Below are positions 1 to 18,143 of a DNA stretch of 42,302 nt, piece by piece. A program made the translations under genes and the position numbers. The stretch spans positions 1-42,302 of the forward strand of contig JAJRQD010000224.1 in assembly GCA_024280435.1 (NCBI GenBank). The letters are read 5' to 3'. Numbering within the stretch: position 1 is the first letter of the stretch; each line of letters opens with the position of its first letter. Source of the DNA: an archaeon. Lineage in GTDB: Archaea > Asgardarchaeota > Heimdallarchaeia > Heimdallarchaeales > Kariarchaeaceae. The notes beneath the pieces are model-generated. The model worked only from the letters and a program-made list of their open reading frames with translations, made no database searches and was not told where the DNA came from.

Positions 1-248
1 AAATGGAGAGCAGAGCATTATATTACTGTCTTAAAATATCCAGAACTTCCAATGACAAATAATCATGCAGAACGATTACTGAAAACAGTAATCGTTCATA
101 GATCAAATGGAAAACCATTGAGAAGTATTAGAGCAATGGAATTATGCTAACAGTATTGACTACCTGGAAACTACTGGGAAAACCAATTGCATCTTCATTA
201 AGAGAATGGATCGAAAATCAAATTGGTCAACCTAAATTGATAAAATAA
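1..248 (+). pseudogene. C-terminal remnant of an IS66-like DDE transposase, truncated by the window edge and frameshifted
   Basis: Frame 1 from base 1 reads KWRAEHYITVLKYPELPMTNNHAERLLKTVIVHRSNGKPLRSIRAMELC* (TAA 148-150). The -1 frame continues from 144 as MLTVLTTWKLLGKPIASSLREWIENQIGQPKLIK* (stop 246-248). The NNHAER...RS...TTWK pattern is typical of IS66-type transposase C-termini. Confidence 0.65.
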
Positions 249-333: not shown

Positions 334-1242
334 TTATGGAAGTCTTATTGGAATAATTCCGTTGCCAATCTCAACAAGTTCGTGTTGAACTTTTATTATT
401 TTTATTTTTCCTATCTCATTTTCTATTTCCGTAATTCTATTTTGGACTGAATTTGTGTTAAGATCTAGATCAAATAAAACAGCATAACCTTTTGTATCTG
501 TGATATATTTATTGTTGACAATATTTAAACCATAAAAATAATATTTATGATTGAAATGTTGTTCACCTATATTATTTATATTATCTAATGTAATTGATTT
601 CATTCTAATATCAGTTGAAAGTGAACCATATTTTTCTTTAACTACTTTTCCTAATATAAAATAATGTTCATTATTAAATTGAAATATTTTATAAGTTAAT
701 ATTTGATATAAAAATAATGAAGGTAATAATATTTTTATTTCTAATATTCTATCTTGTGTCAATCTTGAAATATATTTTTTCCTCTTATCTGCAGAATGAA
801 TTATGATTACTGAAATAATTTCAAAATATATGCCAATTAAGCCTATAATTAGTGCATACTCAAAAGAGCCTGTGAAATACTCAATAATAAATGGTAACGT
901 AATGATAAAATAAAGTGAAATATCACTCGTAAAAACATCTAGAGTTATAATAGCATTTTTTGTAATACTATTATAAAGTTTCAGTAATAGATTAACTATA
1001 AAATATAGTAATAAACCACTAATTAAATATATTATAACAAATAATAATTCTTGAATAATACTTGACGATATTGACTTTCCATTTAATCTTCTGAAAATAT
1101 TTACTCCATGTAATGAAAGTGCAATGAAAATAAATGGTAAGTTGAAATATTTACCGTATTTTACCTTTTTAGGATTTTTTATGCCATTACACGAATAGCT
1201 ATATGTTTTAGTTGTCATATTGTTATTTGAAATTATCACCAA
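334..1242 (-). CDS. polytopic membrane protein of unknown function, downstream partner of the CHAT-like gene
   Basis: 302-aa ORF with several hydrophobic helices and a soluble C-terminal region. Its start overlaps the 3' end of the 1236-2273 ORF by 7 nt on the same strand. Confidence 0.7.
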   Translation of the reverse strand: MVIISNNNMTTKTYSYSCNGIKNPKKVKYGKYFNLPFIFIALSLHGVNIFRRLNGKSISSSIIQELLFVIIYLISGLLLYFIVNLLLKLYNSITKNAIITLDVFTSDISLYFIITLPFIIEYFTGSFEYALIIGLIGIYFEIISVIIIHSADKRKKYISRLTQDRILEIKILLPSLFLYQILTYKIFQFNNEHYFILGKVVKEKYGSLSTDIRMKSITLDNINNIGEQHFNHKYYFYGLNIVNNKYITDTKGYAVLFDLDLNTNSVQNRITEIENEIGKIKIIKVQHELVEIGNGIIPIRLP

Positions 1243-2341
1243 GTAGGTGTGTCACCATAATCATATCTATCAGTTTGGAATTTATTCCATTCTATTAATA
1301 AAAATGCGCTGTATAATAACACTGAAACAATGATCAAAGCAGCTCTTGCACCAAAAGTACCTGAATCTGTAGTTACCGCACCAGCAGCAGCTAGTTGTCT
1401 ATACCAAGGAAGAAATGTTTTTACGAAATAAAGACTGAATTTTGCTACTTGAGCTAGAAACAACAATAATTTTGCAATTTTTGTTGTAGTGGGTGCATCA
1501 TTTGTCAATACATTTAAAAGGTCTCTAAAGCGGTACATCAACACAATTCCATCACTTATCATAATCCAACCCTTCAAGGCAACTTGCATAGAAGTAATTG
1601 GGACAACTGCAGCAAAAGTTGGCAAAAAGATTGCCATGAATAAAAGTAACATATTACCAATTCTTAAGAATGCTTCATTTAGACCTAATTTGTCGAATAA
1701 ATAATTACTCATTGGTAAAAAATCTTTGTCATTCGCATCAAGTGATACACGAGAAATTGCCTTGGAAAAAAAGATGTTAATATTTCTTCCACCATTGAAT
1801 ATATTAGAAATAAGAATAGATATAACATTTGATGCAAATATAGCATCAACTGTTTCTGAAAAACTATAAACAAATTTTCCAGTATTTTTAATTAATTTTG
1901 TAACTATTGACGATTCACATGCAAGAAAATAATGATAATCAGATTCAGATTCTTGAACAATGTTACTTATTATGTTCCATGATAATGTAGTTCCTTCGAA
2001 GTCTATTCCATTTTCACTACTATGTCCTACCCAAATAACAGGTGATTTGGTTGTGGTAATTACTAATATAGCTTCATAAAAGTTAAAATTTATTACTGCC
2101 GCTTTTGGAAAGTTTTGTTTGAGATCTGAAACAGCAGCTAGTTCTTCTAGTGAAGAACCAAACATAACAATAAAAGGAGATACTTCTGCTATAGTCGTAT
2201 TATTAGTAGTAAATGTATTAACTTCTCTAGGAAGGTTGTTTACTAATATTGGTGCAAATGATGATAGAACCATAATCGTAATTATAAATCCTACTACAAA
2301 TAAGTTGGTTGGTTTGATTTTGTTTATTTTATCAACTCCAT
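1236..2341 (-). CDS. membrane-anchored CHAT/caspase-like (clan CD) peptidase candidate; the intact ORF starts at 2273, and the likely true N-terminus at 2341 needs a -1 shift
   Basis: Contains VIWVGHSSENGI (candidate catalytic His) and DYHYFLACESS (candidate catalytic Cys) in CHAT-like order, followed by hydrophobic C-terminal segments. Upstream in the -1 frame, ATG at 2341 gives MELIK|INKIKPTNLFVVGFIITIMVLSS, a signal anchor. Confidence 0.5.
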
Positions 2342-2569
2342 AGAATCTATCGATTTATTTGCCTTAATAAACATTTAGCAAGTGTTTACCTCCCCCTTAT
2401 TTTTCTTAATTATTCATTGTTTTATCATAATATTCAATTAAGTTTTTCATTAATTAAATATATACAAATGACTGTTTAATTTGCGCGGGGATTATGTGTC
2501 TCAACCTATAAAATTATGGTAATATAGCGATTTTCACCAAAAATTTATAACACGGAAAAAAAGGTGGGA

Positions 2570-2943: not shown

Positions 2944-3369
2944 ATGTCACAAGAAGGTAAATATAAAATAAATATGGTATCTGCAAATATGGAGACAACT
3001 GCCCGACAAAAGTCATTGAAAAGAATGGAGAGTAGTAATAGAGGAAGAGGACTAAATAATTCAACAAATAGTTTTGTAGCAGTATTTGGATTGACAATTG
3101 TTGCTTATTATGCCTACACGTACAGTATAAACCATTTAATCTCGTATCTTATACTGATCTCGCTTGGATATTTTATATGGTGGAGAGATAAATCTGTAAA
3201 TATTAAAAAGAATAAAAAATTACTTGCTGACCTGAGGGGTAGTGATGAAATAGTAATTGGTGATATAGTCATAGATAAAAGAGAACAGAAGAGTAGATGT
3301 TCCAATTGTAATCGCGAGTATACTGTAAAAACTTCATTCTGTCTCGGTTGTGGTGCCTCTTTCAATTAA
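2944..3369 (+). CDS. small membrane protein with C-terminal zinc ribbon
   Basis: 141-aa ORF; C-terminus CSNCNREYTVKTSFCLGCGASFN; hydrophobic mid-segment. Confidence 0.75.
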   Translation: MSQEGKYKINMVSANMETTARQKSLKRMESSNRGRGLNNSTNSFVAVFGLTIVAYYAYTYSINHLISYLILISLGYFIWWRDKSVNIKKNKKLLADLRGSDEIVIGDIVIDKREQKSRCSNCNREYTVKTSFCLGCGASFN

Positions 3370-4104
3370 ATTAATATTTTTTTTTCTAATAAATACTATA
3401 ACTATACTTGTTATAAATAAATAACTGAATATTGTATTATCAATTGAATTACTGATATCCAATTCTGGATCTATATTATCACTACTATTCTCAATAATAA
3501 ATTCACTATTTGTCTCATCATCTGAAATATTCAAGCTGTATATAGTATTTGTGAACTCTTTCATAATCACGCTGTATACTTTGATTGCTCCATCCAATCC
3601 ATAATACACAGTTGAATTAGTATATAATGAATCATCATTAGTACTTTTCAATTCACTGCTTGCATAGAAATAGGTATCGTACATAACTGCCACAAATGTA
3701 TTGGTGATATTTTGATTGAATGCTAGTTGGTTCTCAAAATTATAATTAATCGTCCAGTATTCCCAATCTGTGAATATAAAAAATTCAAACATACCAACAA
3801 AATTTATACTTATGAAATTTATTTCCTCATTATTAATGTATGCAGTTACAGATCCAAGATAAGACCCATCTTCAGGTACTGTCTCAAGTTCTAACTCAAA
3901 AATATCATTCTTTTGTACTTTCACTTCTTGCATGTTGGGTAAACTAACTGAGGGGTCCTCTCCTTCTACGTACAGGTCATGAACATAGTACTTGAATCTA
4001 TCTCCTACTGATACACCAACACTTCCTGCATCAATTCCCTGAATTAATGTTGTATTGGACAGTATAATAAATAAAGTAATTATGCTGAAAATTCTTCTAT
4101 TCAT
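3334..4104 (-). CDS. secreted or membrane-anchored protein with N-terminal signal peptide and C-terminal TM
   Basis: 256-aa ORF; N-terminal MNRRIFSIITLFIILSNTTLIQG; C-terminal TIFSYLFITSIVIVFIRKK anchor. Converges with and overlaps 2944-3369. Confidence 0.7.
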   Translation of the reverse strand: MNRRIFSIITLFIILSNTTLIQGIDAGSVGVSVGDRFKYYVHDLYVEGEDPSVSLPNMQEVKVQKNDIFELELETVPEDGSYLGSVTAYINNEEINFISINFVGMFEFFIFTDWEYWTINYNFENQLAFNQNITNTFVAVMYDTYFYASSELKSTNDDSLYTNSTVYYGLDGAIKVYSVIMKEFTNTIYSLNISDDETNSEFIIENSSDNIDPELDISNSIDNTIFSYLFITSIVIVFIRKKNINLIERGTTTETE

Positions 4105-4198
4105 ACTTATCTGTGGTAAATTAATTATTTAAATATAATCTGGTAAATATTATGCTTAGTAAAACAATTTATATAAAATTCAAATTATAATGGATATA

Positions 4199-5089
4199 TC
4201 ATATTTCATTGATAATTTTTTGAGTATGGTTTTTGTATCTTAATAATTTGTATCTTTTACTCATCCATATATCCAACAGAGATGCAATGAACTCAGTCTT
4301 TGCATGCAGAATTAGATGGCCTATATTATCAATAGTCACAAGAGTTGACAATTTCAACTGTCTGTTCAATTCCAGACTATCTGAGTAGGGAACAATCTGA
4401 TCTTTATTACCAGCAATTATTATTGTTTCACAGCTGATACTAGATACATCAATCTCCACATTCTGTGTAGTCTCATAGAATATTTTCTTATGCGTATTAA
4501 TATCCATTCTTTTTATCCTCTCAATGCCATTTTTGGCAAATTTCTTCTTCTCCTCTCCAATCACGAAAAATGGATAAACAAAGCTGAATATATCAACCAC
4601 AGATTCTAATATGAAATTAGGTGTTCTCTTACCAATCCCTAGCATTATTTTTGTAAATGCAGATTTGGAGAATTTATTACTTGGTGATATTAAAAATAAA
4701 GTCTCTACCATATCTGGATAGTCTGATGCAAATTGCAATGCGATTGCAGTGGCAAGTGAGGAAGCCATAATTGTAACTTTGTGTCCAGTGGGAACAATTG
4801 ATGAGATCACCTGATAACAATCATATGTAAAATCATCTATATTCCAATTGATATCATAAGGGCTAGCTGATTCTCCATGGCCTCTTAGATCCATAGATAT
4901 GATATTATAGTTATCATGATAATTCTGCTTGAAAAAATTGTAATCATCAGAGCTTCCAAGGTATCCATGAAGGAATACCAGTGTTGATTTTTCTGGCTCA
5001 AAATTATTGTGCTCCACATGAAGTTGATACAAAATATTCTGATCATACGGGGCATGAACCTGGATTATTGAATCTGTAATTGCTGACAT
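4199..5089 (-). CDS. alpha/beta hydrolase, MenH-like
   Basis: VFLHGYLGSSDDY oxyanion region, MASSLATAIAL nucleophile elbow, GNKDQIVPY acid and NIGHLILHAK histidine; located next to men-type genes. Confidence 0.7.
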   Translation of the reverse strand: MSAITDSIIQVHAPYDQNILYQLHVEHNNFEPEKSTLVFLHGYLGSSDDYNFFKQNYHDNYNIISMDLRGHGESASPYDINWNIDDFTYDCYQVISSIVPTGHKVTIMASSLATAIALQFASDYPDMVETLFLISPSNKFSKSAFTKIMLGIGKRTPNFILESVVDIFSFVYPFFVIGEEKKKFAKNGIERIKRMDINTHKKIFYETTQNVEIDVSSISCETIIIAGNKDQIVPYSDSLELNRQLKLSTLVTIDNIGHLILHAKTEFIASLLDIWMSKRYKLLRYKNHTQKIINEI

Positions 5090-5353
5090 AGTTGAAATAC
5101 CTCCTTATCGATAGATAGGGATAATAGATGAAATCATACGGATGATGATTTATATTGGCGGGTGTATACACACTCACCTACTATACTAATTGCATTACAA
5201 GTATATAAACATGATTGATTAAAAATCACACAAACATTTCACACCGCTCTATGTCGATGAATATTGCATAATTAAATGCAATAACCATCGTTTTATTCTA
5301 CAATTATCTGAAATAATATGTGGTAACGTATAATTAATTGTTTAAATATCACA

Positions 5354-6934
5354 TTAGATGATTAGAAGTGCTATAATCAGTAATAAGGTTGAGATGATAT
5401 TTAACATCAGTATTTGTAGGTAAATTCTTCTTTCATTCATTGTATCCAGTTCTTTATTGAACAGTACAGTAATTGGTAGTATCAGTAGTGTAAGTGTAAA
5501 TGCACTCTCAAGAAAACCAAATAAAATAAATGGCACGAGATAAATGGCTGTGAAAATCGATATAAACCTGATTAGAAATTTACTACGATGTCTACCCAGT
5601 TTCAGTACCAGTGTCTTTCGATTTGCTCTCTCGTCTGCTTCTAGATCAATCATATTGTTCATAATAACAATTAAACCAGAATACAATCCGGGTGTTATAC
5701 CAAGAAGAATAGTGTGGTACAATAGATCTGTATCTGAGCTAAGTATATAGTAACTGGCAAATACGGGGATTGGTCCAAATATTAGAATTATCACCAGTTC
5801 ACCAAGACCCTTGTGTGATAATCTAAATGGCCTACCGGAGTATGAATATGCAAGAATACCACCTGCAAGTGATAGATACAGAACAGTGTTCCCAGGTAGC
5901 AATGAATTGAGGTACATTCCAATTGCTATTGCAATAATAACCATGCTGACACCTGTTGAAATAACACCTCCCGGTGTGGCAAGTCCTTTGTCAATATATC
6001 TACCACCACTGAGCAGGGATGATTTAATTTTAAACTCATCATTCTGATTTTTATGATCCACATAATCAAAAATCAGGTTCATACCAATCTGTACCATCAA
6101 AAATCCTGTTACTATCAACAATACCAGTATCCAGTTGAATTTGTCTGCTAATACAGTTCCAAGTAGTATTGGTAATATGGTGGAGATAAAAATAGGTATT
6201 CTCAGTATTTGTTTCCAGTACTGATAGTTATATCTGAAAGCCTCTTTGACATCATCTATAAGATTGGATTGATTAGTCAATCTAATAGTTTCCAACTCTG
6301 ATTGATCTCCATATATCATCTTATGTGGATAGAATACAAATCTATCCTCATATTTTTTGATATTACCCTCTAGGAATATATTTCTGGCAGTGGGAAACTC
6401 ATTCGAGTGGTTAAAATACAGTTTACAGCCTGAGATAACCAGTAATTGTTTGAAAACAGGGTCCTCACTGCTGATCTCAAATTCCAATGTATCATCAGAT
6501 CTTTTCAGTTCTACTATCTGTGATCTTGACTGATTTCTGAAAGAGGTTATTATCATTGCTTCATTCTGCTCTAGTATTGATCTGTATAGTTTATCATTAT
6601 ATCGCTGAAGGTACTGACTACCATCGGGTATTGATTGCTGTACATATCCGGTGAATTCTTGTTTATCTGTATCCCATCCCATGACATTCTCAATATAGAA
6701 TTCATTATTCTCAACTCTTCCAATCAGCTCAAGAAATTCATAATTTCTCTTGTATGGATCATTATAGCTGAACAAAACAGTTGCATTGGTATTTTTTATT
6801 GAAATATTCAATTTAATTGAATTTTTATCAAATATTATATTTTCTAATTTCAATAATTGTGGATATTCATCATTATATGACATGATCACCCGATCAAACT
6901 GACTTAATCTGGATATTAATGGGTTACTTATCAT
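5354..6934 (-). CDS. UbiA-superfamily prenyltransferase with a ~220-aa N-terminal extra domain (possible split barrel)
   Basis: Aspartate motifs NLIFDYVDHKNQNDE and NNMIDLEADERANRKTL with multiple TM helices. The N-terminal half is soluble and beta-rich. Confidence 0.75.
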   Translation of the reverse strand: MISNPLISRLSQFDRVIMSYNDEYPQLLKLENIIFDKNSIKLNISIKNTNATVLFSYNDPYKRNYEFLELIGRVENNEFYIENVMGWDTDKQEFTGYVQQSIPDGSQYLQRYNDKLYRSILEQNEAMIITSFRNQSRSQIVELKRSDDTLEFEISSEDPVFKQLLVISGCKLYFNHSNEFPTARNIFLEGNIKKYEDRFVFYPHKMIYGDQSELETIRLTNQSNLIDDVKEAFRYNYQYWKQILRIPIFISTILPILLGTVLADKFNWILVLLIVTGFLMVQIGMNLIFDYVDHKNQNDEFKIKSSLLSGGRYIDKGLATPGGVISTGVSMVIIAIAIGMYLNSLLPGNTVLYLSLAGGILAYSYSGRPFRLSHKGLGELVIILIFGPIPVFASYYILSSDTDLLYHTILLGITPGLYSGLIVIMNNMIDLEADERANRKTLVLKLGRHRSKFLIRFISIFTAIYLVPFILFGFLESAFTLTLLILPITVLFNKELDTMNERRIYLQILMLNIISTLLLIIALLII

Positions 6935-7341
6935 CAGATCAACTCCATTGCAATCTGCACACTCTTATATGTGATAATAGTTGGTTTTATTTTTATTATC
7001 ACTCTTTTCCAGAAATACTGTATACTATCCTTTGCTCTGTACAGATCATATGCGTATCTATCCTTGCTAAACCATTCATCTTTATATCTCAACCAATCTG
7101 TATCGATATTATTATCTATCAATCTTGCAGTACCATAGATTATTAGATCATCAATATGAATTGTAACTTTATTATTCTTTCTTATATTATTCAGTTTATC
7201 TGAGAATATCACAGATGATGTGACTGTGAAGATACCATCTTTGAAAAAATAATGCATTGGAGTGATTGTGGTATACTCATCTGATGTAATCAGATCAAGC
7301 AGATAATTATTGTTAATGATCTCTAGAATCTCATCCAGCAT
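6934..7341 (-). CDS. pyridoxamine 5'-phosphate oxidase-like split-barrel protein
   Basis: 135-aa ORF with pattern ITPMHYFFKDGIFTVTSSVIFSDKLNNIRKNNKVTIHIDD...IIYGTARLI. Abuts the UbiA fusion. Confidence 0.6.
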   Translation of the reverse strand: MLDEILEIINNNYLLDLITSDEYTTITPMHYFFKDGIFTVTSSVIFSDKLNNIRKNNKVTIHIDDLIIYGTARLIDNNIDTDWLRYKDEWFSKDRYAYDLYRAKDSIQYFWKRVIIKIKPTIITYKSVQIAMELI

Positions 7342-7347
7342 CTCTCA

Positions 7348-8082
7348 TCACTTTCTTAATCCCAGCATGACTACTATTGATCCCATCAATCCTAGTTTGT
7401 AACGTGTGATGAATCCTGCATCATTATACAGTTTTTTCAATTCTTCTGGACTGTGGAACCTAGCATATGTTTCCTCTAATAATCTGAAGGGTGCTTTTCC
7501 CCTGGTCACTATCAACACTGCCAACTTACCAAGTAAACTCATCATCTGACCGACATACACATCTATTATTGGTGCTAATCTGGTAGCTCTTCTACCCATC
7601 TCAAGCATCATTATCCTTCCATATTTTCTGATTATTCTGTTATGTTCATGAAGTGTACTGGGATAGTCTGTGAAATGCCTTCCCACAAATCCAGACATCA
7701 CTCCATCAAATGCATGTCTACGAAATGGAGTCTTGGCTGCATCTCCCAGCACCAGATTCATACTACCCGCACTGTATACATCCCTATCCTTACAGTATTC
7801 AATCATAGAGTGGGATATATCCATACCCACCACAGATATTCCAGTATTCTGTTTGAACGCCTCATTTGAAAGATGACCTGTACCTGTACCTATGTCTAGT
7901 ATGGTTTCTAGAGGACTAATCTTCTCTGGTATCATATTTTTTATTGCAATATACCTGAATTGTCTATCAGTACCTAGGGACATGAAATTATTTAACAGAT
8001 CGTAGGATTGTGATAGTTTATGAAAGTCATCCCTGACTAGATCAACATATTCTGGATTTGAAGATGAGGTCACAATCGACAT
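7348..8082 (-). CDS. UbiE/MenG-like SAM-dependent methyltransferase
   Basis: FHKLSQSYDLLNNFMSLGTDRQFR, ILDIGTGTGHLS (motif I), LVLGDAAKTPF, GRIMMLEMGRR; UbiE/COQ5-like layout. Confidence 0.8.
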   Translation of the reverse strand: MSIVTSSSNPEYVDLVRDDFHKLSQSYDLLNNFMSLGTDRQFRYIAIKNMIPEKISPLETILDIGTGTGHLSNEAFKQNTGISVVGMDISHSMIEYCKDRDVYSAGSMNLVLGDAAKTPFRRHAFDGVMSGFVGRHFTDYPSTLHEHNRIIRKYGRIMMLEMGRRATRLAPIIDVYVGQMMSLLGKLAVLIVTRGKAPFRLLEETYARFHSPEELKKLYNDAGFITRYKLGLMGSIVVMLGLRK

Positions 8083-8190
8083 TGAAACTATAATTATTAA
8101 TACTTAACAATACTATAACAAATTGAAGAATACTCTTTTTGACATATCAAACTTAAGAATGATTAATAAGTTATTAAATAAACCTGAAAT

Positions 8191-9012
8191 GTGCAATACC
8201 CATTAGACCTGCTAGATCTAATTCATCAGGGAAAGTATGATGAGGCAGTAGCGTACAGCAATTTTCAATATGATAAGATAATCCGATCTAGGGTTGCAGA
8301 ACTTGGAGGTAAGTTCACAGACGCCCTTCACTGGGCAAATATGGCAATTGAGGAGAGTGAGGGAAATACACTTGCATTCGCGTATATTGCATCAAGCTAT
8401 GCTCTATGGAGGTTGAATGTATTTGATAAAGGCATATCGAATCTGAAAATTGCACAGGATTTATTGATTGATGATAGTGTGTATACACGCTATCTGAAGG
8501 CATTATCAATGAATATAGAGGGACTTATCCACTGGAAAGATGGTAGACAGCTAGATATTGCAATGGACCTATTCATACAATCTTTGAGGATCAGAGAGGC
8601 TAATTCTTTTGAAATTGAGATCAGCTACTCTCTGAATAATATCGGGAATACATATCTCAAATTGAGAGAGTTTGATAACTGTTATGATTATTACCAACGA
8701 GCTATGACTATGAGGAATAAAATAGGTTATCTACCATCTATTGCCGCATCATACAACAGTATGGGCAGATATCATGATGCCATGGAAGAATTTGATATTG
8801 CACTTGAATATCATCAGAGATGTCTGGAACATTGGGAAAAGGTTGGTAACAAGCAGTTCATTGCCAAGACACATCGGTTCATCGCAAGGACACTAAAATA
8901 TATGAACAAAAGTGATGCTAGTGATAAACACTACAATATCGCATTAAAAATATTCTCTGAACTGAAAAATGATACTGATATGGTTGCAACCATATCTGCA
9001 ATGAATAAATAA
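8191..9012 (+). CDS. tetratricopeptide-repeat protein (GTG start)
   Basis: Repeated TPR-like units, e.g. EISYSLNNIGNTYLKLREFDNCYDYYQRAMTMRNKIG and ASYNSMGRYHDAMEEFDIALEYHQRCLEHWEKVG. Confidence 0.8.
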   Translation: MQYPLDLLDLIHQGKYDEAVAYSNFQYDKIIRSRVAELGGKFTDALHWANMAIEESEGNTLAFAYIASSYALWRLNVFDKGISNLKIAQDLLIDDSVYTRYLKALSMNIEGLIHWKDGRQLDIAMDLFIQSLRIREANSFEIEISYSLNNIGNTYLKLREFDNCYDYYQRAMTMRNKIGYLPSIAASYNSMGRYHDAMEEFDIALEYHQRCLEHWEKVGNKQFIAKTHRFIARTLKYMNKSDASDKHYNIALKIFSELKNDTDMVATISAMNK

Positions 9013-9082
9013 GAATATAAAACTACCAACAAAGCTTATTTGTTTAATAATATTGAAATTCTATATATTTTAAAATGATAAT

Positions 9083-10428
9083 GTGAGTGATAACAAATTG
9101 GATAATATTCTGAGCATTTTCAATAAATATTCAGATAGAATCCAATCTGAAATGCAGGGAATAGGAGAGAAGGAGTATATCTCTGTAAGTTTTACATCTA
9201 AATTACTATTTGAGGATATAATTGCATATATCAATATTTTCCCAAGATTGATAATAGTCAACAATGAATATAAATTGGCATCGTTTGGTAGATTAGTTGA
9301 GCTAAGTTCATCGGGGAAAAATCGATTTGATATGCAGAATATACAGATGAAAGAGATATTCTCTTCATTCAAGTATGCAGGAGATGCATTTTTCATGGGA
9401 GGATATTCTTTCAATGAGGGAATGGATGATATCTGGCAACATTTCTCAGATTCTAAATTTGTTATGGGAAAATACAGATTAAAGAGGAGAATAATATACT
9501 AAGAATAATATTTAATATTCATAAGAATGAGGATCCTGCTGAATTAATTGATTATATCTCGGACCATCTTGACTTTATTACACCCATGAATATTGCTGTT
9601 AATAGTGAATTTATCAATAAATTATCACAGGAAAAATGGATCTACAATATAAATCAATGTCTGAAAGAGATCAGTAATACCGAATTGGAGAAGGTGGTGA
9701 TGGCAAGAGTAATTGAATTGAGGGATAAAAATCTATCACAGTTGAATCTTTCAATTTTCAATTATCTATCTGAACACTATGGAGGTAGTTATATCTATCA
9801 TTTAGAGTTTGAACCGGGAAGTTATTTTGTTGGTGCAACTCCAGAACTGTTGGTATCCTTATCAGATGGTAAAATATGTACATTGGCCCTTGCAGGTAGT
9901 ATAGGTCGTGATGAGGATGTACTCGAAGATAGATCAAATGCCCGTAAATTGCTGTCTGATGTTAAAGAGCTTGAAGAACATAAAATAGTGGTGGATCAGA
10001 TACTTAATCGTATGGAGAAATATTCAGATGATATAAGTGCAGATGAACATCCATCAATTATGAAATTACAGAATATACAGCATCTGAAGACTGATATTTC
10101 TGGTAATCTGAACTCTGAGTACAATATCCATCAAATTATTTCAGAACTGCATCCAACACCTGCTGTTGGTGGAAAACCAAGGAAAAAAGCAATGCAGTTG
10201 ATTAAAGATCTTGAGGTATACCGTGGATGGTATGCATCACCAATTGGATTTGTGGATAAAAATCTAGAGGGTATGTTCTTTGTGGCTCTTAGATCTGCTA
10301 TTGTATCTGAAGATACTATGAGGCTATATGCCGGTGCTGGAATTGTGGCTGCATCAGATCCAGTTAGAGAATGGAATGAGACCTGTATGAAGTTCAAACC
10401 AATAAAGGAGGCAATTAATAATGAATGA
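9083..10428 (+). CDS. menF: isochorismate synthase MenF, split by an apparent -1 frameshift at G GGA AAA (9466-9472)
   Basis: ORFs 9083-9502 and 9586-10428 join in the -1 frame as ...SKFVMGK|IQIKEENNILRIIFNIHKNEDPAELIDYISDHLDFITPMNIAV... The C-terminal half carries the chorismate-binding signatures (LEKVVMAR, GSYFVGATPELLVS, LALAGSIGRD, HPTPAVGGKP, GWYASPIGFVD, AGAGIVAASDPVREWNET). Confidence 0.85.
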
Positions 10429-12091
10429 GAACAGTAAATGGGTAGAGATTATTGTGGATGAGTGTGTCAAGGCAGGTGTGAGATATGCATGTATTGGAGC
10501 AGGATCCAGATCGACACCTCTCACAATTGCTTTTGTTAGAGATAAATCAATAGAGAGTATTTCTTTTGTAGACGAGAGATCAGCAGGTTTTTTTGCAATT
10601 GGATTGGCAATGTATAGTCAATCACCAGTGGTATTGATCTGCACATCTGGTACTGCACTGGCAAATTTCCATCCTGCAGTACTGGAGGCATTCTATGCAG
10701 GTCATCCACTGATTGTGTTAAGTGCAGATAGACCACATGAATTACGTTATTCTGGAGCTAACCAAACCATGGATCAGGTAAAGTTTTTCGGAACTAATAT
10801 TAAATATTCAGAGGATTTTGCCATACCTGATCCTCAACCCCTGCCAAAGTTTATTAGATATCTAAGAACAAATATATCAAAAGCATTGATAAAAGCAAGT
10901 AATAATCCAATTGGACCCATACATCTGAACTTTCCATTCAGAAAACCATTGGTACCCGAAACCGTATCAAGAGTGTATTCAGAGGGTCTATTATCTGATC
11001 TGGAGCGGAATGGTAGAGATAGTTCCTTTCTGAGCACAATCAGTGGTACTAAGCTATTGAATGCAGATCAACTACTAAAATTATCCAAAATATTAACTGA
11101 AAAAGGATTGATAATAATCGGCCCTAATTCTGGAATAAACTATCAGGAAATACTGATAGAATTCTCTGATACATTGAATTATCCAGTATTGGCAGATCCT
11201 GCATCTGGTGTGCGGTATTATAATAGCAATGTCATCAGTACCTATGATACCTTTATGAAAGATGAAATAATAGATGCAGATCTGATTATTCTACTGGGGT
11301 TCCCACCCACATCCACCCGATTATTGAACTATATACAGACACAACGCTGTAATAAAATAATAATTGATGATGGATTGTACAAAGATAGCTCTCTGACCAA
11401 TCATATTCACATAGATGCATCAGTTGAACATACTCTTAGTTCTATGATCAAGCTGATAAAAAGATCTAAGAATGATTTCTGGATTAATCAGTGGAGAGAT
11501 ATAGAATCAAAGACTATCAAAAGAATAAACAGTAAAATAAAGGATAAGTTTTTTGAGGGAACTATCTATCAGAATATAATCAACCGACTTGAAGCTGATG
11601 AATTAGTATTTGTGTCAAATTCTCTTGCCATACGTCATCTTGATCAGTTTGTATATTCCAGTAATATAAAATTACAAATATTCAGTAATCGTGGGCTCAG
11701 TGGAATTGATGGCAATCTATCAAGCGCATTTGGAATTGCCAAGGCATCAGCTAAGAGAATACATGTCCTCATAGGTGATCTGACATTCTATCATGATCTC
11801 ACCGCATTACTAACTACTATGAAAAATGAAATATCATTCAGTATCTATCTGATAAATAATTTTGGAGGAGGTATTTTCCATAGACTACCAATAGCTGAGT
11901 ATAAGGATGTATTCACCGATTATTTTATCACTCCACATTCTATTGAATTTGCCAAAATATCAGAGGCATTTTCTATACCGCATAAAATCATCAAAGATAT
12001 TGATACAATGAATAATACTGAATTCTGCAATGGTATCTATGAGTTTATTATAGATGCAGAAAAATCAAACTCTTTGATCAAAGAAATATAA
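10421..12091 (+). CDS. menD: 2-succinyl-5-enolpyruvyl-6-hydroxy-3-cyclohexene-1-carboxylate synthase MenD
   Basis: 556-aa ThDP enzyme: GAGSRSTPLTIA, DERSAGFFAIGLA, CTSGTALANFHPAVLEA, LSADRPHELRYSGANQTMDQ, NRGLSGIDGNLSSAFG; overlaps menF by 8 nt. Confidence 0.93.
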   Translation: MNENSKWVEIIVDECVKAGVRYACIGAGSRSTPLTIAFVRDKSIESISFVDERSAGFFAIGLAMYSQSPVVLICTSGTALANFHPAVLEAFYAGHPLIVLSADRPHELRYSGANQTMDQVKFFGTNIKYSEDFAIPDPQPLPKFIRYLRTNISKALIKASNNPIGPIHLNFPFRKPLVPETVSRVYSEGLLSDLERNGRDSSFLSTISGTKLLNADQLLKLSKILTEKGLIIIGPNSGINYQEILIEFSDTLNYPVLADPASGVRYYNSNVISTYDTFMKDEIIDADLIILLGFPPTSTRLLNYIQTQRCNKIIIDDGLYKDSSLTNHIHIDASVEHTLSSMIKLIKRSKNDFWINQWRDIESKTIKRINSKIKDKFFEGTIYQNIINRLEADELVFVSNSLAIRHLDQFVYSSNIKLQIFSNRGLSGIDGNLSSAFGIAKASAKRIHVLIGDLTFYHDLTALLTTMKNEISFSIYLINNFGGGIFHRLPIAEYKDVFTDYFITPHSIEFAKISEAFSIPHKIIKDIDTMNNTEFCNGIYEFIIDAEKSNSLIKEI

Positions 12092-12157
12092 TGCTAAATA
12101 CACCAAGATTTAATTGATAAAAAGTGCAATACATCAAGATCTAACACTTTAATTTAT

Positions 12158-12193
12158 CCACGATAAGTTCCTTAACCACGATAAGTTCCTTAA
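12158..12193. repeat. perfect 18-bp tandem duplication (CCACGATAAGTTCCTTAA x2)
   Basis: Two consecutive identical copies at 12158-12175 and 12176-12193. Confidence 0.95.
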
Positions 12194-12243
12194 GATAGAA
12201 ATACAATATAAATTTATACAATGAAATAAAACTGAGTAATGGA

Positions 12244-12713
12244 ATGGAAATATCAGAATTAATCAACTCTGATCAATTATCTTTTTTAATGTATTTGGAG
12301 TATATCAATTAGGTGTATATAAAATCGGAGCAATAGGAAGTATTCTAGGTGGCTTGATGACCATGGGAAGTTTATTCCTCGGCATTTGGGTAACGTTTGT
12401 ATTCACAAACAACGCCCTTGGATTGATTTGGTTCACAATATTTGCAATCTTAGGTGGATTGGCAATTGGATCATTAAATGGTAGAAAAGCAAAATCACAG
12501 GCAAAGTACAAGAATGAGTATACGGCATATGGAGCAATGTTTTTTGCGGCAATAATTTTTCTGGGTGTATATTACAGGTTCTTTGCATTTGCTAAGATAG
12601 AGGAAAAAGTAATAGGTTTGGATGCTGCCAGTGTTATCTATGTGGCAGTTGGTGGTGCATTGATGGGTCTGTTTGGCATTGGCTTGACAGTTGCCAATTC
12701 TCTTGCAGAATAA
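12244..12713 (+). CDS. small multi-TM membrane protein; reading frame restored by -1 shift at T TTT TTA (12282-12288)
   Basis: ATG 12244 gives MEISELINSDQLSF then, in the -1 frame, NVFGVYQLGVYKIGAIGSILGGLMTMGSLFLGIWV..., continuous with ORF 12354-12713. Confidence 0.6.
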
Positions 12714-12732
12714 TAAATTGCAGAATAATAAA
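12703..12732. repeat. 15-bp tandem duplication spanning the stop codon (TTGCAGAATAATAAA x2)
   Basis: Copies at 12703-12717 and 12718-12732; the TAA stop at 12711-12713 lies in the first copy. Confidence 0.9.
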
Positions 12733-12805
12733 GTAAAAAAATAAATATCATTCAAATTAAAAAAGCGTAAGGAAAGAAATATTTAATATAATTCACACTT
12801 CATTA

Positions 12806-14089
12806 TTGATTATGTTAGATCCAAAATTGATCCGTGAGAATCCGGAGATGATAAAAGATAATTTCAGAAGAAGGAAAGATCCGAAGCTAATTGAGATGGT
12901 TGATGAATTCATAGAGGTTGATAAAATCTGGAGAGCTGTTGATAAGGAGGTTAACAATCTAAGAAAGAATAGAAATACATTTGCCAAGAAAATAGGTAAG
13001 GCAAAGGGTGCTGATAAGAAGAAGCTCATTGATGAGATGCAGGGGATGAAGAGGGAGTTGGAGGAGAAAGAGATAAAATACAACGATGTAGCTGATAAAA
13101 GGCAGTATTTACTTGATAGAATGCCAAATCTACTTGATGATACAGTACCCTATGGGAAGGATGATGAGGATAATGTGATGATAAAAGAGGATGGAATGCT
13201 TCCTGAATTTGATTTTGATATTAAAGATCATCATCAGATAATTACTGATCTCAATCTTGCGGAGTTGGAGAGGGCAAGAAAAGTATCTGGTAGCAGATTC
13301 TATTATCTGAAAAATGAGGCAGTTATTCTTGAGATGGCTTTGATGAGGTATGCAATTGATATTTTAACCGAGAATGGAGCTGAGGTGATGTCTACTCCAA
13401 ATATGGTGAGAAAGGAGATACTGTATGGTTCAGGTTTCTTACCTCTTGGTGAGGAGGATATATACAAGATAGAAGGTGAGGATCTTGCATTGATAGGTAC
13501 TTCAGAAGTGACTCTGGCAGGATATCATATGGATGAGGTATTGTTGAAGGATGAGTTACCAATCCGATATGCAGGAATATCATCATGTTACAGAACTGAG
13601 GCCTCTGCAAGTACTAAGGATGATAAGGGTATATTCAGAGTACATGAATTCAAGAAAATAGAGATGTTCACCTATTCAGATCCAGAAAAATCAGCTGAGG
13701 AACAGCAGAGAATGATAGGTATTGCAGAGAAAATTTTCAAAGGATTGGATTTACCTTACAGGGTGGTGAATATCTGTACCGGTGATCTTGGTGGAGTGGC
13801 TTCAAAGAAACTTGATATAGAGGTATGGATGCCTGGTCAGAACAGATACAGAGAGGTTGTATCATGTTCTAACTGTACTGATTATCAATCACGTAGATTG
13901 AGAATTAAATACAGAGAACAGGAAGGAAAACCACCAATTGGGTTCGTACACACACTGAATTCAACTGCAATCACAACTACCCGGCCAATAATAGCGATAC
14001 TTGAGAATTTCCAACAGAAAGATGGATCAATTAAAATTCCAAAAGCACTTGTGAAGTACACCGGATTTGATACTATCAAAGCAAAATAG
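12806..14089 (+). CDS. serS: seryl-tRNA synthetase
   Basis: 427-aa class II aaRS: MLDPKLIRENPEMIKDNFRRR start, coiled-coil arm, GTSEVTLAGYHMDEVL, YRTEASASTKDDKGIFRVHEFKKIEMF, VVSCSNCTDYQSRRLRIKYR, HTLNSTAITTTRPIIAILENFQ. Confidence 0.96.
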   Translation: MIMLDPKLIRENPEMIKDNFRRRKDPKLIEMVDEFIEVDKIWRAVDKEVNNLRKNRNTFAKKIGKAKGADKKKLIDEMQGMKRELEEKEIKYNDVADKRQYLLDRMPNLLDDTVPYGKDDEDNVMIKEDGMLPEFDFDIKDHHQIITDLNLAELERARKVSGSRFYYLKNEAVILEMALMRYAIDILTENGAEVMSTPNMVRKEILYGSGFLPLGEEDIYKIEGEDLALIGTSEVTLAGYHMDEVLLKDELPIRYAGISSCYRTEASASTKDDKGIFRVHEFKKIEMFTYSDPEKSAEEQQRMIGIAEKIFKGLDLPYRVVNICTGDLGGVASKKLDIEVWMPGQNRYREVVSCSNCTDYQSRRLRIKYREQEGKPPIGFVHTLNSTAITTTRPIIAILENFQQKDGSIKIPKALVKYTGFDTIKAK

Positions 14090-14159
14090 ACTTATAGCTA
14101 TTTTATCTCCTATTAGTTTATTAAATATTAAATAATAATTCAAGTAAAGTGACTTTATC

Positions 14160-15287
14160 ATGACAAACCAAGTAAAATTGAAAAACTTTTCCGACTTCGA
14201 TAGGATGTTACAGTCAAAAAATCTGGTTGTTACACTTCTTGGTGCAATACTTGGATTTGCACTGTCTTATTTCACAATCACAATCTTAGCTGTTCCATAT
14301 ACACCTTTTGGACTATCATTATCTATTGGTGTAGTACTTGCAACAGCTGTATACACAAGAAATATTGGCTCTACTTTATTTGTAGGTTTGATCACAGGGA
14401 TTGCTCTCGTATCACCTTTTGGAGGTAGAGTTGATTTTATAGAGGGCTATATTCTATTGATTGTGGCGATCAGTGTATATATAGGTTATAATGCGGATAA
14501 ATTGAAATTAATACTTGATTGGAACAGAAGATATATGCAATGGGCAGTGTTATTTGCCTTCTATATCATTGGTATGGGATTTTTATCATCTGGATATGAG
14601 GACCGTTATTACAAATTCAAGATACCACTTGGAATCGGTGGGGATATGTTCTATGACACAGGATTGCCATTGTTGGAGATTGTTGCATTACTAGGTATAC
14701 TACTGATGTGGTTGGTATTCAACCAGTTATTAAAAGGTACATTATCTCTGAGTGATAGCTCTGCAAAGAAATACAGAATATTTGGATTATTGATGATACT
14801 CGTTGGATTTGTCATCTCTGCACTGAGTTTGATACTATTCTCCAGAACTATCTCACAATCACAGATGCTTGGTATTGTGAAGAATAGAGATCATCTTGCC
14901 ACTATTAATCAGTTCTTCTCACATCAAGCCACAGCACAGCAGTACAGTGTTATTGTGGAACCATTCAATGGATATGTGGCAATTGCCTATTCAATTATGT
15001 TCTATGCCATTGGACTATCATATTACAGTATTGGAAAATACAGAGGAAATATAGATGGTATCAGGGGGGGTGCATCAATTATATTCTTCTCAATTCCATT
15101 ATCTTTAGTGATATTCTTTTCCATCGGTTCATATTATATTCAGCCATTAATCAATCCGATTGGATTTTACGTGAGTTTTGAGATACTTCCTGTATTTTTA
15201 TCGATGTTATGGGCAGTGATGTTCTATAATGTTATATTTGCACTGATATACTACAAAATATTAATATCAATATTCAAAATGGAATAG
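14160..15287 (+). CDS. polytopic membrane protein of unknown function
   Basis: 375-aa ORF with many hydrophobic helices; no family recognised. Confidence 0.75.
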   Translation: MTNQVKLKNFSDFDRMLQSKNLVVTLLGAILGFALSYFTITILAVPYTPFGLSLSIGVVLATAVYTRNIGSTLFVGLITGIALVSPFGGRVDFIEGYILLIVAISVYIGYNADKLKLILDWNRRYMQWAVLFAFYIIGMGFLSSGYEDRYYKFKIPLGIGGDMFYDTGLPLLEIVALLGILLMWLVFNQLLKGTLSLSDSSAKKYRIFGLLMILVGFVISALSLILFSRTISQSQMLGIVKNRDHLATINQFFSHQATAQQYSVIVEPFNGYVAIAYSIMFYAIGLSYYSIGKYRGNIDGIRGGASIIFFSIPLSLVIFFSIGSYYIQPLINPIGFYVSFEILPVFLSMLWAVMFYNVIFALIYYKILISIFKME

Positions 15288-15291
15288 TTTA

Positions 15292-15765
15292 GTGTACACA
15301 AGATTCAGCAAAAATATAGAGGATAAAAACTGGGATCATTTGAAATATCTACAGAGATTGACTATGGCTCTGGTATTGATAATTATGCTGGTGTATGTGT
15401 GGATACTGATCACATCTTTCAATGGTATATTTGAGATTGAGATCGCACAACAGACACTAAGAACTCTCACACTATCTCTGATAATTGGAATAATCACCGG
15501 TCTGCTAATTGCATTTTTAGAGCTGGCAAAATACTATTTCAACAAGGAATGGGACTTGCATGTGGTGTTACCCAATTTTCTGTTCTTTCATCTTCTCCTG
15601 ACTTTCATCGTTATGGTGACCTCATATTTTGTAAATGAGGATACTACCTGGAATGCAGGTCTGGTCTATGGATTTGTACTTGGTGGATTGATTGCAATGG
15701 TGGCATATGCAGGGGAGATAAAGATTGAGCACTCAGAAGATGAATCCAAAGGATTAGCTGAGTGA
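15292..15765 (+). CDS. membrane protein of unknown function (GTG start), probably co-transcribed with 14160-15287
   Basis: 157-aa ORF with four hydrophobic segments, 4 nt after the preceding stop codon. Confidence 0.65.
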   Translation: MYTRFSKNIEDKNWDHLKYLQRLTMALVLIIMLVYVWILITSFNGIFEIEIAQQTLRTLTLSLIIGIITGLLIAFLELAKYYFNKEWDLHVVLPNFLFFHLLLTFIVMVTSYFVNEDTTWNAGLVYGFVLGGLIAMVAYAGEIKIEHSEDESKGLAE

Positions 15766-15817
15766 TATATTGGTACCTATAAATACTAAAATTCCTATAT
15801 ACTGCAATAATGAGATA

Positions 15818-17242
15818 CTACAATCTATACATATTCTTGTAATTTGATTTTATCTCTGCTCTGATTATCTTACCAGATGCAGTCTGTGGAAATTCATCAA
15901 AGATATAGTAGTCTTTTGGTATTTTATAACTTGCTAGATTATCTCTACAATACTGAATTATATGTTGCCTGTCAATATCTGTTGATAATATTAGTGCTGC
16001 TGTTAACCTCTCTCCCCAATCCTCATCCTGCACACCGAATACCACTGCATTCTCAATTCCATTGATCCTCAATAATATATCTTCTACCTCCTGTGGAATG
16101 ATATTCTCCCCACCCGAAATAATCAGATCGATTCTTCTCTGTAGTACATACAATCTACCATCTTTGATGTAGCCAAGATCTCCCGTTCTGAAAAATCCAT
16201 CATCATATTTTTCTGGTAAATCCAATCTGTAGTACCCATTACTGATATTCGGTCCACGTACCTCAATCTCCCCATAATTCTCATCTTTATACTGCTTTAT
16301 CCTTATCTCAACACCTGGTAATGGAGGTCCAACAGTATGATAGTCATCTCTCACAATTTCTGTAGTTGCCGTTGCCACCTGAGAGCAGCTCTCTGTCATT
16401 CCATAGGTCAATGCAATTGGTAATTTGTGAGCCATACATATTTTCACCAGTTTCTCATCTGTTCTCGCACCACCTAACAGTATCACGCGTAATGAATTAT
16501 CTCTCATATCATATTTTTTCAGAATACGGGATAACATCGTTGGTACCAGTGATATCATTGTTACCCTTTTGTTCTTTATACTATCAATAATACTATCGAT
16601 ATTGAATGAGTTATGAAGTAACATTGCAGTATTGTAGATGCATGATCTGAATATAATCTCCATACCACCCACATGATAGAATGGAATGCAATTCAACCAG
16701 ATATCATCTTTCTCAACCCCAAGCACTTTGGCAGAACTGATTGCACTTGAGTAGTGATTATCATAATTTAGTAGCACTCCTTTTGGATTTCCAGTGGTAC
16801 CCGATGTGAATATTATACAATGTGTATCCGTTTCTTTTATTATCCTCTTAACTTTTGTATCAATTCCATCCATTGAGATAATTGTATCCAATGAAATTAT
16901 ATTATCAAAATTAATCTCTCTATCAGTCACTAGTAGAGTTATATCTGAATGCACTATCTGTTCTTGTAGTAGTGAATTATTCAATCTGTAATTCAAGGGT
17001 ATTGTGATCGCACCCAATTCAATCAGTGCGTATATCAGATATACATATTCAATTGAGGTGGATAGTAGAATACCAACATGTGTATTATTCTCCACACCAA
17101 TCTCACTCAATTTGCATGCAAATTCAATTGATCTTCTATACAATTGAGAATAAGTGATGTATTGATTATTGTTTATAATTGCTACCTTATCTGGAGCCTG
17201 TTCATATGCATTTAATAACCAATTTATCAATTTACACCACAA
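15818..17242 (-). CDS. menE: o-succinylbenzoate-CoA ligase MenE (AMP-forming)
   Basis: ANL-superfamily motifs IIFTSGTTGNPKGVLL, YGMTESCSQVAT, GEIEVRGPNISNGYY, FRTGDLGYI, ISGGENIIPQEVE, PQTASGKIIR; 11-nt overlap with menA. Confidence 0.88.
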   Translation of the reverse strand: MWCKLINWLLNAYEQAPDKVAIINNNQYITYSQLYRRSIEFACKLSEIGVENNTHVGILLSTSIEYVYLIYALIELGAITIPLNYRLNNSLLQEQIVHSDITLLVTDREINFDNIISLDTIISMDGIDTKVKRIIKETDTHCIIFTSGTTGNPKGVLLNYDNHYSSAISSAKVLGVEKDDIWLNCIPFYHVGGMEIIFRSCIYNTAMLLHNSFNIDSIIDSIKNKRVTMISLVPTMLSRILKKYDMRDNSLRVILLGGARTDEKLVKICMAHKLPIALTYGMTESCSQVATATTEIVRDDYHTVGPPLPGVEIRIKQYKDENYGEIEVRGPNISNGYYRLDLPEKYDDGFFRTGDLGYIKDGRLYVLQRRIDLIISGGENIIPQEVEDILLRINGIENAVVFGVQDEDWGERLTAALILSTDIDRQHIIQYCRDNLASYKIPKDYYIFDEFPQTASGKIIRAEIKSNYKNMYRL

Positions 17243-18143
17243 TACCTATTGCATAGAGTATACTATAAATTAAACCTAGTTGTGCAGTCTTACCAAGTGT
17301 TTTATTCATAAGAACACCTTCATTGCCGCTCAATACATTCCTGATCAGTTTCCCGGCTTTACCCAGTGATAATAGTGGAAGCAGAATAAAGACAGAGTAA
17401 TTCATGAACAGTAGATAGAATGGTATTGCATAGGATATAATCAGTAATGTGATGAAATATATCTGAGATAGTTTTTTTCCCATGAAAACTGCAAGAGTGA
17501 ATTTACCCACCTGTTTATCCGCCTCTATATCTCTGTAATTATTGATAACAAGTATTGCCGTGATCAATAATCCGGTCGGTACTGAAATTATCATCACATG
17601 ATTTAATGATATAAAGGTAATTTGTGATATATGGCTTATTGCCTGTACATAGTAAGAACCTGTCACTGCCACCAATCCAAAGAATATGAATACAAATATA
17701 TCTCCAAGACCAATGGTACTTAGGGGGTATGGCCCACCAGAGTATAGTAATGCAAATATTATTGATAATATACCAATGATTAGAATTACAATCCCACCGA
17801 CATATATCAGATATAAACCAATGATTATCGCAGATACTATATTGATCACTATACCTATTTTCAATTCTTCAAGGCTGAGTAATCCAGATGCTGCTACTCT
17901 TGTTGGTCCTGTACGTTTATCACTCTCATTACCCTTAACAAAATCATAGTAATCATTGGCAAGGTTAGATAATATCTGTAATAGCAGAGAACCGATCATT
18001 GCAGCAAAAGCTGGCCAGAATGTAAAAAGGTCATCATGTATTGCAGTTGCAGTTCCTACCAGTACTGGAGAGATTGCAGCGGGCAAAGTCTTTGGTCTAA
18101 TTGCCATAATCCATACACGATATTTGGAAATACTCACAAACAA
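17232..18143 (-). CDS. menA: 1,4-dihydroxy-2-naphthoate polyprenyltransferase MenA
   Basis: 303-aa UbiA family: WIMAIRPKTLPAAISPVLVGTA, NLANDYYDFVKGNESDKRTGPTRVAASGLLS, NNYRDIEADKQVGKFTLAV; adjacent to menE. Confidence 0.9.
   Translation of the reverse strand: MFVSISKYRVWIMAIRPKTLPAAISPVLVGTATAIHDDLFTFWPAFAAMIGSLLLQILSNLANDYYDFVKGNESDKRTGPTRVAASGLLSLEELKIGIVINIVSAIIIGLYLIYVGGIVILIIGILSIIFALLYSGGPYPLSTIGLGDIFVFIFFGLVAVTGSYYVQAISHISQITFISLNHVMIISVPTGLLITAILVINNYRDIEADKQVGKFTLAVFMGKKLSQIYFITLLIISYAIPFYLLFMNYSVFILLPLLSLGKAGKLIRNVLSGNEGVLMNKTLGKTAQLGLIYSILYAIGIVV

Follow-up and report, generated by a model that had tools for sequence, protein, structure and literature searches.

We analysed a window of 42,302 nucleotides, positions 1 to 42,302 of contig JAJRQD010000224.1 (here contig C259), from the 4.03-Mb genome, in 342 contigs, of an Asgard archaeon of the Kariarchaeaceae (GCA_024280435.1). 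Near the start of the window two genes follow one another on the minus strand: ORF A, for a caspase-like protein with a variable tail of transmembrane (TM) helices, and ORF B, for a partner membrane protein. On balance we read the pair as one member of an Asgard-wide polymorphic system of the effector/immunity type. The features of the two genes are listed here.

1236..2354 (−): ORF A, predicted exported caspase-like protein whose variable tail has several TM helices; first ATG at 2273, frame open to 2354
2240..2395 (−): 5′ leader block of A, with ~78–100% DNA identity (per 40 columns) to paralogues on contigs C92, C205 and C224
2250..2303 (−): N-terminal hydrophobic signal or anchor LFVVGFIITIMVLSSFAP, preceded by a Lys-rich start
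1743..2195 (−): caspase-like domain, residues 27–177, from a domain-only AlphaFold2 model and a hidden Markov model
2004..2039 (−): His motif VIWVGHSSENGI, with H84 (2022–2024) and G89
1908..1934 (−): Cys motif HYFLACESS, with C119 (1917–1919) and S121
1845..1847 (−): D143 of a (V/I)DA motif, conserved in homologues
1239..1742 (−): variable C-terminal tail of A, residues 178–345, with 3–4 TM helices and an acidic C-terminus
334..1242 (−): ORF B, partner membrane protein of 302 amino acids, with ~5 TM helices (691–1149) and a soluble tail; candidate immunity protein

Both catalytic motifs that a sequence-only reading of this DNA had proposed for the upstream gene are present, at 2004–2039 (His) and 1908–1934 (Cys). 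They lie far beyond chance and are almost invariant across ~90 divergent homologues: among 92 divergent Asgard sequences H84 and C119 were each kept in 91, G89 in 89, D143 in 88, W99 in 87 and S121 in 83, which excludes non-conservation of the dyad. The AlphaFold2 model of the domain alone (72 sequences; pLDDT 93.1, pTM 0.89) contained a Rossmann-like β–α unit in which the His comes two residues past strand 3 and the Cys two residues past strand 4; a β hairpin and then a helix lie between the His and strand 4. Caspases and gingipains, peptidases of clan CD, carry their His after strand 3 and their Cys after strand 4, and the clan-CD geometry claimed for the dyad was borne out by the model. The hairpin after the His is likewise shared with the clan CD families C25 (gingipain), C13 (legumain), C14 and CHAT, and the His–Cys spacing of 35 residues in A compares with about 33 in gingipain RgpB.

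Relative to these families the A domain is smaller, and its similarity is sub-threshold to C25 and C13 and nil to CHAT. In Pfam, two A members matched C25 (best E = 1.7e-3) and one matched C13 (E = 1.3e-3), all below the cut-off; hhalign against C25 and C14 matched up the two His residues and likewise the two Cys residues, at a probability of only 5–13%, and a receiver-domain control aligned elsewhere. A Foldseek search of the PDB with the domain model returned no caspase or gingipain among the 50 best matches and nothing at E < 1e-3, the best being flavodoxin-like; the full A model and the domain alone gave flavodoxin-like or chimeric matches only, and a sequence search of the PDB with A gave no match. 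The α/β sandwich expected of the fold was thus predicted, but a direct caspase match was not obtained by Foldseek. Assignment to CHAT was not supported: neither Pfam, PADLOC nor hhalign gave a match to CHAT (PF12770), and the genome has CHAT proteins of its own elsewhere. Taken together, A very probably carries a clan-CD-like peptidase domain, predicted from its sequence and model, whose ancestry leans on the weak C25 and C13 matches.

Homologues of A occurred in 37 of the 60 genomes of the class and in 72 of the 231 Asgard genomes of the phylum, with 16 matches in one genome (G008) and 8 in the window's own. Named records of relatives belong to Candidatus Heimdallarchaeota, plus one Thorarchaeota, and when species genomes of bacteria and archaea, 85,462 in all, were scanned with a single pattern, which has limited sensitivity, relatives were confirmed only in these Asgard records. 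Phage, plasmid and viral collections contained no match, and an origin of A from any of these was discarded on that ground. A hydrophobic segment precedes the domain in 66 of 69 members, with net positive charge ahead of it in 61 of these, an arrangement that predicts export by an N-terminal Sec-type signal; A itself has such a segment, as the sequence-only reading had held. The layout is conserved: a signal peptide and the caspase-like domain lead into a multi-TM tail, and a membrane-protein gene comes next, tail and membrane protein both being variable. Tails with at least two TM helices were found in 63 of the 73 full-length members, and the 3–4 C-terminal helices predicted in A agree with the earlier description. 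At the very C-terminus many tails carry an acidic motif, for instance DYxDxDxIVG (D-x2-D within the last 25 residues in 50 of 95 members; an (I/V/L)VG-like end in 18), perhaps a recognition or cleavage site.

Some relatives are longer. In L312 and in L317/L308 the exported caspase-like domain is fused to an α/β-hydrolase (lipase/esterase-like), L317/L308 also having TSP3 repeats, and three giant surface proteins of 1597–2115 amino acids (L299, L303 and L301) start with the caspase-like domain and continue with TSP3 repeats or with DUF2341 and a β-sandwich. These C-termini point to the cell surface.

We next consider the downstream gene. Partners were defined as same-strand ORFs of at least 75 amino acids lying −60 to +150 nt from the end of A. 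A same-strand ORF at this distance followed 54 of the 73 full-length A genes, and an ORF with at least two TM helices followed 47 of the 73. In the background such an ORF followed 21 of 154 other membrane genes (Fisher 3e-14) and, when every gene of these loci is counted, 35 of 391; this gene-order background comprises ~100 loci, and the P values overstate independence because A members are related. A lack of co-occurring partners is thereby excluded. The partners form ~30 sequence clusters, two of the families being almost confined to genomes that carry the A family. ORF B, a multi-TM protein with a soluble tail as described earlier, had no close homologue beside other A genes, and a single weak match was all that the rest of its genome yielded; the idea that B is one conserved partner gene was rejected. 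Of the proposed two-gene pairing, then, what stood is that a membrane-protein gene follows most homologues, but this partner is not a single conserved gene. The reported 7-nt overlap of A and B holds only if B starts at TTG 1242; an internal ATG at 1218 would give a 17-nt gap instead.

Tails and partners change together. Among pairs of A genes with related domains, tail and partner were both related in 47, the tail only in 39, the partner only in 4 and neither in 496; in 5000 shuffles of the partner labels, pairs with both related averaged 3.3 and never exceeded 14. Of the tail-only pairs listed, most trace to a single locus, L056, where the ORF after A has one TM helix and looks unrelated. 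Pairs with nearly the same domain mostly have tail and partner either both in common or neither. For the window itself, the nearest tail is that of the paralogue on C92 (E = 9e-9, Z = 11.9), whose partner is a weak relative of B (pairwise BLASTP E = 4e-4, Z = 3.9) and the most plausible one in the genome.

Identity falls away near the junction of domain and tail. In 19 of the A pairs whose domains are more than 55% identical (up to 82%), the tails are no more alike than background, and in tail-swapped pairs most changes in identity fall between C119 and ~19 residues past D143. In two paralogues of the window's genome (C205 and C224) identity drops from 82% to 23% at D143+5, a step visible in the DNA as well.

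Truncated cassettes were found in a relative, genome G007. On its 995-kb contig C4, between 888 and 917 kb, one full-length A gene (903812–904969) is accompanied by four 5′-truncated copies, each with its own tail followed by a membrane-protein gene. All four enter at the DNA for SWxxISTLVKSSxxQRHFFLSCDS, before the catalytic Cys, and the entry block common to the full gene and the truncated copies spans 48–167 bp at 82–90% identity. Extra partner copies stand after or between the cassettes, and at 766–770 kb a second full A gene is followed by a partner, a truncated copy and a further partner. The 888–917-kb region (L048, L049), with its cassettes, repeated partners and other repeated genes (for example at 892778 and 900305), has the look of a hypervariable island. 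Partial A copies also occur in G000, G028, G035 and G040, those of G035 and G040 being ended by contig ends. Last, partners of family A4 occur without a tail as solitary genes (L326, L327, L338 and L339) and in tandem (L318 and L332).

The family therefore combines a constant N-terminus with interchangeable tips, a co-varying partner, truncated cassettes, orphan and tandem partners and an export signal, all features of polymorphic toxins. Because its interchangeable tips, cassettes and partner strings match features described by Zhang et al. (2012), we place it by architecture with the polymorphic toxins, and toxicity of the tail and immunity by the partner are what we infer from that likeness. 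We suggest that A is exported by its Sec-type signal and places its Cys peptidase domain outside the cell, where the domain would most likely process A itself at or near the tail junction. The hydrophobic tail might then insert into and damage the membrane of a competitor, and B may protect the producer and its kin by neutralizing the matching tail. A full gene and a 5′-truncated cassette that recombine in the DNA of the Cys-motif region would exchange tail and partner in one step. We offer more tentatively, at somewhat less than even odds, the fuller proposal of a recombining toxin/immunity class of the Asgard archaea's own, in which the caspase-fold peptidase would be both exported carrier and self-processing unit, the DNA surrounding its catalytic Cys would anchor recombination, and membrane-embedded killing tips would be paired with membrane immunity proteins. 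If true, the lineage that gave rise to eukaryotes would have a caspase-fold domain at work in conflict outside the cell, and antagonism or kin recognition in these archaea would become directly testable through a family present in 72 of 231 Asgard genomes, one of which has 16 matches. The partner families, which have no database name, would then be ready candidates for new immunity proteins.

Several points weigh against this interpretation. The main problem is the route by which a protein that is Sec-exported and has TM helices would get to another cell: with such a tail A may remain in the producer's own membrane, and no dedicated secretion system or delivery route was identified for it, vesicle transfer being a hypothetical possibility. 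Neither the TM tails nor the partners matched known toxin or immunity families, respectively, and for 19 of the 73 full-length members no ORF of at least 75 amino acids lies within the set distance (in those of the L162/L164 type a partner match starts ~120–170 nt past the A match; the other partnerless members are without any). In the window the lockstep of tail and partner depends on the one weak match to the C92 partner, and several relatives are fragments of metagenome-assembled genomes. Co-variation of tail and partner would also fit two subunits of one membrane complex.

The last of these objections leads to the strongest rival, a hypervariable cell-surface recognition complex, in which the A tail and B would be receptor or adhesin subunits diversifying for self/non-self recognition and the peptidase would mature surface proteins. 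Co-variation and an exported domain would be expected of it, the family also includes large surface proteins that bear TSP3 repeats and β-sandwiches, and the VARTIG module of Thermococcales, in which TM genes come after an exported protein that is hypervariable, has been discussed in such terms (PMC8416519). However, solitary and tandem partners without a tail and truncated tail-plus-partner cassettes are known signs of toxin/immunity systems, and some A C-termini are enzymes; we regard a recognition complex as unlikely.

The sequence-only reading had suggested a module of defence or regulated cell death. In an intracellular module of this kind, infection would lead the caspase-like protease to activate a membrane-perforating tail that the partner otherwise restrains. 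A caspase-like domain fused to a membrane tail suits this, as do multiple copies with rapid turnover, and restraint by the partner is compatible with co-variation. Yet the signal peptide places the domain outside, A and B have no sensor domain that we could find, PADLOC gave only isolated matches at E > 0.01 and none above chance level, and exchange of tail and partner on cassettes is not a known trait of such systems. Tail swaps, co-variation, cassettes and solitary partners point away from such a module and towards the recombining effector/immunity type, and we consider it improbable. Least probable is a housekeeping protease for membrane-protein maturation, gingipain- or clostripain-like, with the tail a mere anchor and the neighbour unrelated: the weak C25 and C13 matches and the export signal would fit, whereas the association with a partner, its lockstep with the tail, which already disfavours this explanation, and the truncated cassettes would not.

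The start of A is unusual. Counted from the ATG at 2273 the gene encodes 345 amino acids (1236–2273), and the start first assigned, at 2341, is an ATG that lies one frame off (ATG GAG TTG ATA AAA TAA) and opens a five-codon ORF, ATGGAGTTGATAAAATAA, within the leader block. The hydrophobic stretch at 2250–2303 is coded mostly upstream of ATG 2273, and in the four same-genome copies the main frame upstream has no canonical start, a GTG in C224 excepted. The same frame offset recurs, within nearly identical DNA, in the paralogues on C92, C205 and C224; a sequencing frameshift was rejected on this evidence, and because three paralogues share the offset we take it to belong to the locus itself and not to be a simple read error. 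The leader is near-identical across A and these paralogues, yet the proteins are mostly only ~35–45% identical. A frameshift, an unusual start or a recombination block are possible explanations of the leader.

The transposase relics reported beside the gene pair are IS66-family fragments, one on each side.

1–147 (+): IS66-family transposase fragment (Pfam PF03050, E = 2.6e-5)
~2537–2818 (−): IS66-family transposase fragment (Pfam PF03050, E = 8.7e-6)

Farther along, ordinary genes occupy 3337–18143, among them an α/β hydrolase, UbiA, a UbiE-like methyltransferase and a TPR protein and, at 9586–18143, a chorismate-binding enzyme, a TPP enzyme, a seryl-tRNA synthetase, an AMP-binding enzyme and a second UbiA.

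Finally, we compared the family with known systems. Pore-forming colicins join a hydrophobic helical killing domain to receptor and translocation domains and are accompanied by a small multi-TM immunity protein, all borne on plasmids. A and B resemble them in pairing a hydrophobic helical domain with a multi-TM partner; colicins differ from A in being plasmid-borne, in having receptor and translocation domains and in lacking a peptidase domain. The likeness to bacterial polymorphic toxins (contact-dependent inhibition (CDI), Rhs and type VI/VII (T6/T7)-delivered) is broader, taking in a constant exported N-terminus with a polymorphic C-terminus, a co-varying adjacent partner, truncated cassettes of tip and partner, partner strings and orphans, and a caspase-like peptidase right before the tip. 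In those toxins Zhang et al. described caspase-like peptidases just before the tips, pore-forming tips among others, and interchangeable tips supplied as toxin-plus-immunity cassettes with immunity genes in strings, and they found polymorphic toxins generally absent in archaea, some methanogens and haloarchaea excepted (PMC3482391). Unlike them, A is short (~350 amino acids) and without a filament, Rhs repeats or a known delivery system, its multi-TM tails belong to no known toxin family, its recombination block lies inside the peptidase domain, and its family is found in Asgard archaea. The literature searched contained no earlier report of a polymorphic-toxin/immunity architecture in Asgard archaea, a mention within an archaeal polymorphic-toxin survey being possible, and two published surveys of Asgard or archaeal defence mention neither caspases nor CHAT. 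In that literature the nearest archaeal analogue is VARTIG (PMC8416519), which shares with the A family a C-terminus made hypervariable by recombination, downstream TM genes and a polymorphic-toxin-like organization, and differs in having Ig domains, in lacking a caspase-like domain and in belonging to another lineage.
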